Shown here in pieces: positions 48,199-53,239 of a stretch of DNA of 64,000 nucleotides. Every line of letters starts with the position of its first letter. Position 1 is the stretch's first letter. The stretch is from Ignavibacteria bacterium (GTDB taxonomy: Bacteria > Bacteroidota > Ignavibacteria > Ignavibacteriales > Ignavibacteriaceae), in the NCBI GenBank assembly GCA_021286645.1, contig JAJTBZ010000035.1, positions 1 to 64,000 on the forward strand. The letters run 5' to 3'. The notes under the pieces were generated by a model. That model was not told where the DNA came from. It was given only the letters and a program-made list of their open reading frames with translations, and did no database searches. The position numbers and the translations under genes are program-made.

Positions 48199-49329
48199 TC
48201 AATTATGCTTCGGAAATGTTAGTAATAAATCACGGTAATATTCATACTGTTTCTGCCTTAACTTAATTTCTTTCGGAAGACCTTCACTAATTGAGGTAGT
48301 GAGTAGGTCGAAATTATCGAGGATATTAACAATTCGTTCTTGTTCCTCTAAAGAGGGAATTGGAATGACGTATTCCATGATTTTATTCTTATTTCCTCTT
48401 GGCATTTTAGCTCCCTTAGCGTGTTTCATGTTGAACGCAAAGAATTTATCGTCTGCTAACACATGATATAAATATCGAGGACTAATTGATACATCTATGA
48501 TGTTAATCACAAGCACGTCTCCATTTGTACCGCCAATACAATCAGCAATCCATATTTTCTTTAGATATGGCCGAATATTACCTATTAAAATATCGCAGAT
48601 ATTATATTTCACATAATTACCGGATTGTGGTAAATAAGTAGAAATTGTTTTCCCTTGTTTATTTTGTAAAAGATTATCAACACCAACATAGTTATTTTTA
48701 TCAAGTTTATCATAGCTGATTCGTTCACTAGCGTATCGGGTTACTTCCCCCAACGTCTTCCATTTCACTTCACTCTCATCGAAATTCAACAGCTGTTCAC
48801 GATAATAATTATACTGTTTTTTGCGCGCTGTTAGCTCCGCTGTTAGCTCCGCTGTTAGCTCTGTAAAGGTATCGAGAATACGAACAATCTCTTTTTGAAC
48901 AGGTAGAGGTGGAACTGGAATGGGAACTTCTAATATTTCACTTGTACGTAATGCTGGAATTCCAGCACCGTGTTGTTTTGTCATAAATCTTTCCTGGTTA
49001 AGTTTCAGGAAGTGATAAATAAATCTATTTTCAACCAACTCAATTTTTGGCAAAACAACATAACAATGGGCATTAGCATAAAATTTTGTAGTGACGAAGT
49101 TAACAAAACCAGCAGAAGCCCCTCCTTGGCTAATTATTGTTTTGTTTCCCTCATAATTGTAAACATCCGTATATCCTGAAAACGAAATACCACCGTTATA
49201 AGCAGGATACCTCCCATCATCCAAAAGTAATTCCTTGTTAAGCTGATTGCCTTTTTCAAGTCTAACAACTTCCCTCAGCATCTTCCATTCAACTGCCACG
49301 CCATGTAATAAATTATCTATTAGGCTCAT
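48199..49329 (-). CDS. hsdS: Type I restriction specificity subunit (two TRDs, type IC-like)
   Basis: 376 residues. TRD1 lies at 10-135 and TRD2 at 185-325, each followed by a conserved helix ([16 protein letters not shown] and [15 protein letters not shown]). Between them is ELTA repeated three times (157-168). HsdS reads the bipartite DNA target for both methylation and restriction. Overlaps hsdM by ATGA (49326-49329) and precedes prrC by 10 bp. The repeat resembles the TAEL spacer of type IC EcoR124-family enzymes. Confidence 0.95.
48827..48862. repeat. Three tandem 12-bp repeats in hsdS (TAEL-type spacer)
   Basis: The 12-bp unit GCTGTTAGCTCC occurs three times head to tail (the last with one change). 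It encodes ELTA/TAEL repeats in the central helix. In EcoR124-type enzymes, gain or loss of one such unit changes the gap between the two half-sites and so the recognition sequence. Confidence 0.9.
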
Positions 49330-50873
49330 GCTTCAATCTCTTTTACAATGGCAACAATTTCGGCACGTAGCTTATTTATTTTCTTCACGGTTTTAGTAAT
49401 TTCATCATTCAGTTTTGTAATATCCACCTGCTCACGATTGTCTTTTGCTTCTACATACGAACTTACCGACAGGTTATAATCATTTTCAATAATTAGCCTA
49501 TTATCAACCGTTTTTGCCACATGTGCCACATGCTGTTTACTGTTGAACAGTTGCATAATCTGCTCAATATGCTCGTCTAATAGTATATTGTTGTTGGTGG
49601 CTTTTTTAAAGAAAGCTTCGCCGCTGGCATCAATAAACTGCGTTTTATTTTCGGTTTTGTGTTTTGATAGCACAAGAATATTTACAGCTATTGAAGTGCC
49701 ATAGAATAAGTTTGGGGCTAAAGAGATAATAGTTTCAACAAAGTTGTTATCCACTAAATACTTCCTGATTTTCTGCTCCGCTCCACTACGGTAAAATATA
49801 CCGGGGAAGCAAACAATAGCAGCCCTGCCTTTACCAGAAAGATAATGGAGGGCATGTAACACAAAAGCAAAATCTGCTTTGGATTTCGGAGCCAACACCC
49901 CGGCGGGTGCAAAACGGTCATCATTAATGAGCGTTGGATCATCGTCCCCAATCCATTTTATGGAATAAGGCGGGTTTGAAACTATGGCATCAAAAGGTTT
50001 TTCATCGCCATAGTGCGGGTCTATAAGCGTATTGCCAAGTGCAAGGTTAAATTTATCGTAGTTTATGTTGTGCAAAAACATATTCATACGGGCAAGGTTA
50101 TACGTAGTATGGTTTACTTCCTGCCCATAGAAACCTTCTTCGATAATATGATTTTCAAAGTGCTTTTTTGCCTGTAACAATAAAGAGCCTGAACCCGCAG
50201 CCGGGTCATATATTTTATTTACTGTTTTCTGCTTATGCATTGCCAATTGTGCAATGAGTTTCGAAACATGCTGAGGCGTGAAAAACTCTCCTCCTGATTT
50301 TCCTGCATTTGCGGCATAATTGGAGATAAGGAATTCATAGGCATCGCCGAAAAGGTCAATTTGGTTGTCTTCAAAATTTCCAAAATTCAGTTCTTCTACA
50401 CCCTTCAAAACGGCAGCTAAACGGCTGTTTTTTGCTTCAACGGTATTACCTAATCGCGTGCTTGTTGTGTCAAAATCGGCAAACAATCCTTTTATATCAG
50501 GTTCAGATGGATAACCATTTGCAGAACTTTCAATAGCGTCAAAAATTGCTTTTAAGTCTGTATTCAGATTAGGGTTTGTATTGGCTGTTAGTGCAACATT
50601 CACAAAAAGTTGACTCGGGTAAATAAAATACCCTTTTGTTTTAATCGCATCGTCCTTTATTGCGGGTGTAATTTCTTTATCCGGGTAGTTTGCATAATTC
50701 ACGCTTTCATCACCACCTTCAATATAATTGGTAAAGTTTTCACTGATAAAGCGATAAAATAACGCGCCTAAGACAAACTGTTTAAAATCCCATCCATCAA
50801 CCGAGCCACGAACCTCGTTGGCTATTTTCCAAATTTTCGCTTGCAATTCTTGTCTTTGTGCTATGCCTGTCAT
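49326..50873 (-). CDS. hsdM: Type I restriction DNA N6-adenine methyltransferase subunit
   Basis: 515 residues. The HsdM_N helical domain spans 5-150 and the SAM-binding motif DPAAGSGS lies at 223-230. The catalytic NPPY is at 300-303, diagnostic of N6-adenine methylases, and a C-terminal helix interacts with HsdS. SD AAGGA lies 7 bp upstream. First gene of the hsdM-hsdS-prrC-hsdR operon. Length as expected for type I M subunits. Confidence 0.97.
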
Positions 50874-52366: not shown

Positions 52367-52584
52367 ATTGCACGAAACCATATTAATCTATCTGTTATAA
52401 TCCACGATATAACATCGCATCAGCGAGTTAGTCATCTCGATAAAAATGAATTTCCTGCCCGAACAGTGGAATCATTTGCTTCGAAAACCTTATCATAGCA
52501 GGCACTGCCATCTTCCGGTACCCCGGTTGCAAGTGATGCTACTATGTAAAGGAAGACCGGGACGCACCTGTCGGTTGGCAGGTA

Positions 52585-53117
52585 AACTCGCGACCTTCCC
52601 GCTAGTAGCGGAACGTTCTAACCAACTTTCCTTTTAAAATGAAAAAAGCCTACCACAATGTGACAGGCTCTTAACTTTGGCGGGGCCGACGAGACTTCCC
52701 GACTACTCGTCGGGACGACCTTCCCGCCAGAAGCGGGACGTTATACCAACTTTCCTTTTAAAATGAAAAACCCGTCAAAATGTGACGGGCTTTTTAAGAG
52801 CGGGGCCGACGAGACTTCCCGACTACTCGTCGGGACGACCTTCCCGCCAGAAGCGGGACGTTCTAACCAACTTTCCTTTTAAAACAAAAAACCCGTCACA
52901 GTGTGACGGGCTTTTTAAGAGCGGGGCCGACGAGACTTCCCGACTACTCGTCGGGACGACCTTCCCGCCGAAGCGGGACGTTCTAACCAACTGTTCGTTT
53001 AAAATGAAAAAAGCCTACCACAATGTGACAGGCTCTTAACTTTGGCGGGGCCGACGAGACTTCCCGACTACTCGTCGGGACGACCTTCCCGCCTAAAGCG
53101 GGACGTTCTAACCAACT
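52585..53117 (-). repeat. Tandem array of five tRNA-Asp-derived elements with hairpins
   Basis: Units lie at 52585-52627 (partial), 52678-52751, 52800-52872, 52921-52992 and 53043-53117. Read on the minus strand, each keeps tRNA-Asp pieces: the D-arm AGTTGGTTAGAACG, variable loop AGGTCG and, in four units, acceptor end AGTCTCGTCGGCCCCGCC. The 17-nt anticodon arm is replaced by another 17-nt hairpin (TCCCGCTTCTGGCGGGA; loops differ between units, one is 16 nt). In four units part of the T-arm is replaced by TCCCGACGAGTAGTCGGGA. The 5' acceptor strand is missing. Each full unit is followed by a hairpin plus T run (52647-52669, 52771-52789, 52892-52910, 53012-53033). Confidence 0.85.
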
Positions 53118-53131
53118 GTTCGTTTAAAAAG

Positions 53132-53159
53132 CAAAAAGCCCATCTTTCGATGAGCTTTT
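53132..53159 (-). terminator. Terminator of tRNA-Asp
   Basis: On the minus strand AAAAGCTCATC pairs with GATGGGCTTTTT around a GAAA-type loop, right after the CCA end. Confidence 0.8.
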
Positions 53160-53162
53160 ACG

Positions 53163-53239
53163 TGGCGGGGCCGACGAGACTCGAACTCGCGACCTCCTGC
53201 GTGACAGGCAGGCGTTCTAACCAACTGAACTACGACCCC
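53163..53239 (-). tRNA. tRNA-Asp (GTC)
   Basis: 77 nt including an encoded CCA. The acceptor stem GGGGTCG pairs with CGGCCCC, discriminator G. D-arm is AGTTCAGTTGGTTAGAA; anticodon arm CCTGC-CTGTCAC-GCAGG gives anticodon GTC; the T-loop is TTCGAGT. Closely like E. coli tRNA-Asp. Transcribed leftward into the tRNA-derived array. Confidence 0.97.

Follow-up and report, generated by a model that had tools for sequence, protein, structure and literature searches.

Palindrome-bearing partial tRNA-Asp copies in an Ignavibacteria genome and their probable relation to a family of GIY-YIG tRNA cassettes

The tRNA-Asp array of the window

The window analysed here, i.e. the whole stretch of 64,000 nucleotides taken from contig JAJTBZ010000035.1 of an Ignavibacteria bacterium (assembly GCA_021286645.1), carries an intact tRNA-Asp gene (gtc) on its minus strand and, 3' of this gene, five units with a spacing of 120-125 bp, designated A1 to A5 beginning with the one closest to the tRNA (Table 1). 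The initial annotation had described tandem tRNA-Asp-derived units with exchanged arms, and alignment to the tRNA bears this out, with four near-identical units (A1-A4) and a divergent one (A5). In all five, the 17-nt anticodon arm CCTGCCTGTCACGCAGG is swapped for the palindrome TCCCGC(n)GCGGGA, which shows one stem change in A5. As described earlier, the stem of this hairpin is kept while its loop varies; to the three loops reported before (TTCTG, TTTAG and TACTA) the TTC of A2 has to be added, the order from A1 to A5 being TTTAG, TTC, TTCTG, TTCTG and TACTA. The hairpin had also been assigned the length of the arm that it replaces, which is correct for the 17-nt versions of A1, A3, A4 and A5 and incorrect for the 16-nt version of A2. 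A second palindrome of 19 nt, TCCCGACGAGTAGTCGGGA, stands for eight bases of the T-arm (CGAGTTCG) in A1-A4; the T-arm replacement, previously ascribed to all units, does not extend in this form to A5, where ACCTGCCAACCGACAGGT is found instead.

According to the alignment, A1-A4 retain from tRNA-Asp the D-loop, the D-stem 3' strand GAAC, the segment AGGTCG and the 3' 16 bases, with extra changes in the D-loop of A4. The D-stem 5' strand GTTC is altered in all five units, which makes D-stem pairing impossible, and the D-arm is thus not the exact copy it had been taken for. Likewise, the acceptor had been regarded as conserved in four units, which applies to its 3' strand (A1-A4), whereas the 5' strand GGGGTCG is missing from all five. 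A5 lacks the tRNA 3' end altogether, as well as a terminator. Each of A1-A4 is closed by a hairpin and a T run, as had been noticed. At least some of these terminators, however, are not private to the units: the one of A2 matches that of a second tRNA-Asp gene (array B, see below), and the one of the window tRNA-Asp recurs in array B together with the same following bases, TTTTTAAACGAACAG. None of the five window units is called as a tRNA by ARAGORN or Rfam. A unit folds stably (z -3.6), which it owes to its palindromes and its terminator.

Table 1. Features of the tRNA-Asp array, in window coordinates
Feature	Position	Strand	Basis
Intact resident tRNA-Asp (gtc)	53163..53239	-	ARAGORN, Rfam RF00005
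Terminator hairpin following the resident tRNA-Asp; also present in array B, outside the window	53126..53160	-	Sequence, alignment
Unit A1, comprising a head, the remnant of the D-loop, two palindromes, the 3' end of the tRNA and a terminator	53008..53125	-	tRNA-Asp alignment
A1 palindrome replacing the anticodon arm, TCCCGCTTTAGGCGGGA	53087..53103	-	
A1 T-arm palindrome, TCCCGACGAGTAGTCGGGA	53062..53080	-	
A1 tRNA-Asp 3' end, AGTCTCGTCGGCCCCG	53046..53061	-	
Unit A2; terminator like that of array B's tRNA-Asp gene	52886..53000	-	Alignment
A2 palindrome replacing the anticodon arm, 16 nt	52963..52978	-	
A2 T-arm palindrome	52938..52956	-	
Unit A3	52766..52880	-	Alignment
A3 palindrome replacing the anticodon arm	52842..52858	-	
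A3 T-arm palindrome	52817..52835	-	
Unit A4, further D-loop changes	52641..52760	-	Alignment
A4 palindrome replacing the anticodon arm	52722..52738	-	
A4 T-arm palindrome	52697..52715	-	
Unit A5, divergent and truncated	52560..52640	-	Alignment
A5 palindrome replacing the anticodon arm, TTCCGCTACTAGCGGGA	52597..52613	-	
A5 second palindrome, ACCTGCCAACCGACAGGT, of the array B kind	52566..52583	-	

Within the genome, TCCCGACnnnTnGTCGGGA occurs in five copies, all of them inside the two tRNA-Asp arrays, and TCCCGC(n5)GCGGGA in seven, six of which lie in tRNA-Asp units and one beside tRNA-Pro. Since these copies are confined to tRNA units and their neighbourhood, a chance origin is excluded. The exact palindromes of the window are found in its genome at tRNA copies only, while the wider TCCCG..CGGGA family is scattered. 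Palindrome-bearing partial copies are also seen on both sides of tRNA-Pro(tgg) and 3 kb away from it (L195, L222, G000:C16), and a single one lies upstream of tRNA-Thr (L228, G000:C12). Approximately 2 kb from the window array, at 48199-50873 on the minus strand, two ORFs resemble in sequence the specificity and methylase subunits of type I restriction-modification systems.

A family of tRNA-linked GIY-YIG cassettes

The second tRNA-Asp gene lies about 27 kb away on the same contig and is accompanied by three further units (array B); an isolated unit is found at C42:75199. Between two array B units there is an ORF of 78 aa whose residues 1-73 form a GIY-YIG domain (PF01541; 54.8 bits against a curated cut-off of 22.6, 1.2e-14). 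Its final codons fuse into tRNA sequence, AAATATATAGAACAATTGGTTTGCGCAGGAGGTCG, behind which come first the T-arm palindrome and then the 3' end of the tRNA. Because terminators and junctions are common to both tRNA-Asp arrays, we infer that the two have exchanged units. The unit heads GAACAGTTGG may moreover derive from the codons at the C-terminus of the nuclease, GAACAATTGG; this match is suggestive but very short. Viewed together, the window array is probably an ORF-less relic or satellite of a GIY-YIG tRNA cassette family, its own ORFs having probably been lost.

The family was assembled from 110 ORFs, 80 of them at named loci obtained by a search with the array B protein and 30 from the genome of the window and from related genomes. 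Y5, Y16, R26 and E62, i.e. the catalytic Tyr, Tyr, Arg and Glu of the GIY-YIG superfamily, are conserved in at least 99% of the 110 sequences, and pN/pS values of 0.03 to 0.34 in ten close pairs indicate purifying selection. By profile comparison, the closest solved proteins are UPF0213, then the structure-specific SLX1 nucleases and then I-TevI; as in UPF0213, there is a single GIY-YIG domain, and the array B protein has no extra DNA-binding domain. To our knowledge, the UPF0213/SLX1 branch has not been connected with tRNA-linked repeats. SLX1 acts with a partner on branched DNA, whereas no partner is seen beside the cassette nuclease. Members of the family are present in Bacteroidota, Ignavibacteriota, Cloacimonadota, Calditrichota and Fidelibacterota (Marinimicrobia). 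No relatives were found on plasmids or in IMG/VR, phages yielded two weak Staphylococcus phage matches, and anti-phage defence models gave marginal matches to one PADLOC model only.

A tRNA gene lies within 1.2 kb of 84 of the 110 ORFs, on the same strand in 84 of 84, upstream of the ORF in 76 and downstream in 8. Where a tRNA remnant could be compared with the resident tRNA, the isotypes agree in 63 of 67 cases. On the protein tree the isotypes are clustered, requiring 24 changes compared to 55.6 after shuffling and 38.4 after shuffling within phyla, for a tree which has few columns and many weak forks. On the tRNA strand, a full cassette consists of the intact tRNA, its terminator, an ORF for a single-domain GIY-YIG protein of about 80 aa whose C-terminus reads RKYIEWLI or similar, a stretch of about 20 nt of largely tRNA origin, a palindrome and the remaining 3' part of the tRNA, after which the same terminator is often repeated. 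The palindrome, mostly TCCCG..CGGGA, replaces part or all of one tRNA arm in the partial copy while the resident tRNA stays intact. Units of 73 to 450 bp occur in tandem, with or without the ORF, and hold no integrase. Copies of the 5' part which end in a palindrome lie upstream of some tRNAs as mirror units, namely of tRNA-Asp (L162, L164), of tRNA-Pro (L191, L192) and of tRNA-Met, where six such units of about 73 bp each are found (L203). In a separate observation, L156 (G020:C1:119300-122900) holds five tandem 450-bp units with a different GIY-YIG gene and the 3' part of tRNA-Leu(cag), CCTGCCTGCCGTCAGGCAGG being inserted in the T-arm.

The single-contig, closed genome G002 carries five near-identical 315-bp ORF-bearing units after tRNA-Asp. 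At the orthologous tRNA-Asp loci of three congeners (72-78% identical flank) the terminator runs directly into other DNA, and because these sites are empty, the G002 array has recently been gained or lost. The cassette ORFs thus share with homing genes a position beside the tRNA, their putative target, and the existence of occupied and empty alleles among relatives; a separate DNA-binding domain for a long site is absent.

Palindromes, break sites and the origin of the partial copies

At the 80 named loci, the 9.6 kb lying directly after the ORFs (120 nt after each) contain 67 TYCCG palindromes, distributed over 60 loci, compared to 5 in 240 kb of farther flank, which corresponds to a 336-fold enrichment; the median distance from the end of the conserved domain is 23 nt. 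Independent of any motif, we searched for partial copies of the resident tRNA which resume after a foreign segment. The foreign segment contains a perfect hairpin of at least 6 bp in 79 of 124 interrupted copies, versus 2.0 expected from shuffles, whereby both counts overstate the number of events, as copies within one tandem array are not independent. All 18 downstream copies of tRNA-Asp break at position 50/51 and resume at 59/60 (two at 66), i.e. in the T-arm, and this fixed break is found in Ignavibacteriota, Cloacimonadota and the window's family. Copies of tRNA-Ala mainly use the anticodon arm or the T-loop. Other palindromes occupy equivalent places, among them the CCTGCCTGCCGTCAGGCAGG of the 450-bp tRNA-Leu array, TCCGCC..GGCGGA and TTCGCCGCGGCGAA.

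One of two explanations offered initially was a REP-like palindrome targeting pieces of tRNA. This comes close to what is seen: in 41 genomes of the clade we counted 618 palindromes versus 38 for a reversed control pattern, and they sit in arms and loops of tRNA copies, with a tRNA-like flank in 35 of 61 palindrome copies compared to 5 of 305 shuffled ones (two genomes). Like REP elements, they are short, repeated, conserved at their ends and able to form hairpins as DNA. In contrast to REP/RAYT systems, the arrays lack a RAYT, the palindromes lie inside tRNA copies and the linked enzyme is of the GIY-YIG type. The REP-associated transposase which had been suggested as a check is not found beside the array, nor is a cognate Y1 transposase flanked by palindromes: the sole PF01797 match in the window's genome lies elsewhere, at G000:C98:258172-258507 (L221), with no array palindrome near it.

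In genome G008 most palindrome sites are clustered at stable-RNA genes, and a few lie at the apex of other hairpins. At L177, L178, L179 and L199, all of them away from tRNAs, the palindrome occupies the apex of the repeated hairpin GAGACGATGCA..TGCATCGTCTC. A further locus (L207, G008:C1:3411200-3412400) has palindromes at 448, 574 and 690 and a 5S rRNA gene at 788-904 on the minus strand; the three repeats downstream of this gene appear to resemble the 5S 3' end with TCCCGA..TCGGGA in place of an arm. Since 5S-like copies appear to carry the palindrome, the effect is probably not confined to tRNA genes. Such sites, i.e. palindromes at other hairpin apices and at 5S rRNA without a GIY-YIG ORF, would suit an origin in two layers, in which an unlinked enzyme, e.g. 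a Y1 transposase, puts a REP-like palindrome into hairpin-forming DNA, the GIY-YIG genes are passengers in the resulting tandem tRNA copies, and only insertions into spare copies survive. The occupation of equivalent places by several palindrome families and the presence of a Y1 transposase in the genome point in the same direction. We nevertheless consider this origin rather unlikely in view of the 336-fold enrichment beside the ORF, the rise of the palindrome count per genome with the GIY-YIG count (rho 0.43, p 0.005), the location of the lone Y1 transposase away from any array, and the single fixed tRNA-Asp site tied to a protein lineage which is mostly Asp-only.

The other initial explanation was a family of tRNA-like RNAs, i.e. 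transcripts which resemble tRNAs or act as decoys, have exchanged hairpins and terminators of their own, and are selected as RNAs. The stable fold and the terminator after each of four units are in line with it, and so is the covariation of stems among homologues: in 28 palindromes of 18 nt, the stems are paired to 100% and contain 23 double changes compared to 6.2 in shuffled sequences. The palindrome stems, for which a test of covariation had been suggested, do covary, but any palindrome acting at the DNA level would do so as well. A cloverleaf with both acceptor strands, as in a tRNA or tRNA-like RNA, is impossible without the 5' acceptor strand and with a broken D-stem. Moreover, the position and the kind of the palindrome vary between isotypes and copies, at least some of the terminators are copies of tRNA-Asp terminators, and the upstream mirror units have no 3' end at all. 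With strands missing and no tRNA call, an RNA gene was rejected, and selection of the units as RNAs seems highly improbable.

Partial tRNA 3' ends downstream of a tRNA are also the classical trace of integration, and relatives of the window's genome do possess such tRNA-Asp fragments. The units could accordingly represent 3' halves displaced by repeated integration of islands or phages and shortened later. Tyrosine recombinase islands and prophages resemble the cassettes in that an intact tRNA is restored, a 3' piece is left downstream and the breaks fall in the anticodon or T arm. As a control, we examined seven tRNA-Asp 3' halves located away from the tRNA gene in relatives; all seven extend without interruption from the anticodon loop as far as the terminator and carry no palindrome. 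Hence tRNA fragments do not generally undergo an exchange of arms. The cassettes, in contrast, form tandem units of 0.07-0.45 kb, have exchanged arms and 5' copies upstream, and contain neither an integrase nor an uninterrupted 3' half at the far end as a tRNA island would. An integrase footprint was therefore rejected and has very little probability. At L231-L237 and L249 of relatives, tRNA-Asp 3' halves of the classical integrative-element type start at the anticodon loop.

A homing-like model and its implications

In our preferred reading, to which we assign a probability of roughly 0.5, the window array is a DNA-level repeat and not an RNA gene, left behind by a homing-like tRNA cassette which cuts tRNA arms and leaves partial copies scarred by palindromes. 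On the basis of the sequences we infer nuclease action in the formation of the cassettes. Hereby, the nuclease would cut the tRNA gene within a hairpin arm, and repair would restore one intact tRNA while a partial copy stays beside it. Such repair would duplicate either the 3' part with the terminator or the 5' part with the leader, the missing half being copied from an intact template and joined to the old end. With the arm at the cut site turned into a palindrome, the copy could neither be cut again nor function as a tRNA, and homologous recombination might then expand, contract and exchange units. The enzyme may act on the palindrome itself as a structural substrate, as one would expect of a relative of SLX1; alternatively, the palindrome may be an independent REP-like unit.

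Cut and repair would account for the strand bias, the fixed tRNA-Asp break, the one-sided duplication, the loss of arms and the tandem growth, the palindrome itself excepted. As the palindrome is conserved in sequence and also occurs away from tRNAs, this process alone is insufficient. Further findings argue against the cassette model. The resident tRNA is intact, though in a simple model it is itself a target for cutting; many palindrome arrays, including the one of the window and those at 5S rRNA, have no adjacent GIY-YIG ORF; and one related genome has nine GIY-YIG matches and zero TCCCGA palindromes. Due to the many arrays without the gene and the intact resident tRNA, we hold the odds that the enzyme takes part in array formation to be about even.

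Among known elements, the free-standing GIY-YIG homing genes found in tRNA regions come closest; the cassette differs from them in structure and hosts. SegB of phages T4 and T6 is such an endonuclease, and its gene, like the cassettes, adjoins tRNA genes of many isotypes (PMC13096335, PMC2988022). In phage T6, SegB makes its cuts inside tRNA genes, and the tRNA locus is amplified in tandem through homologous recombination, a process which requires the nuclease activity of SegB (PMC13096335). SegB is a direct precedent for cutting and tandem growth. It is phage-borne, whereas the cassettes are chromosomal, and palindromes or palindrome-scarred tRNA pieces are not among the features given for it in the available portions of both sources (PMC13096335, PMC2988022). 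Compared to SegB as described there, the cassette enzyme is small (about 80 aa), lacks an additional DNA-binding domain and shows a link to one strand and to isotype.

More tentatively, the family could represent a novel type of minimal mobile element in at least five phyla. In that case, a one-domain SLX1-like GIY-YIG enzyme would see the hairpin arms of stable-RNA genes as DNA structures, cut them, swap the arm for a palindrome and duplicate the flanking half, its target being set by the hairpin shape of the DNA and the isotype and including 5S rRNA genes.

tRNA genes are classic docking sites of mobile DNA, the known users being integrase islands and a few phage homing nucleases. The cassette looks like an undescribed selfish DNA element living on tRNA genes: in the open-licence literature searched, no description matches it and SegB is the sole analogue, which is weak evidence of novelty. 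What sets it apart is a nuclease gene of less than 250 bp which is found in at least five phyla, has one orientation relative to the tRNA genes it is linked to and is associated with a fixed break site in tRNA-Asp. Such an element would account for a class of unusual tRNA pieces, and of palindromic repeats, in Bacteroidota and allied phyla. It would also offer a simple system for studying target recognition by a single-domain GIY-YIG enzyme and the replacement of hairpin arms by palindromes.
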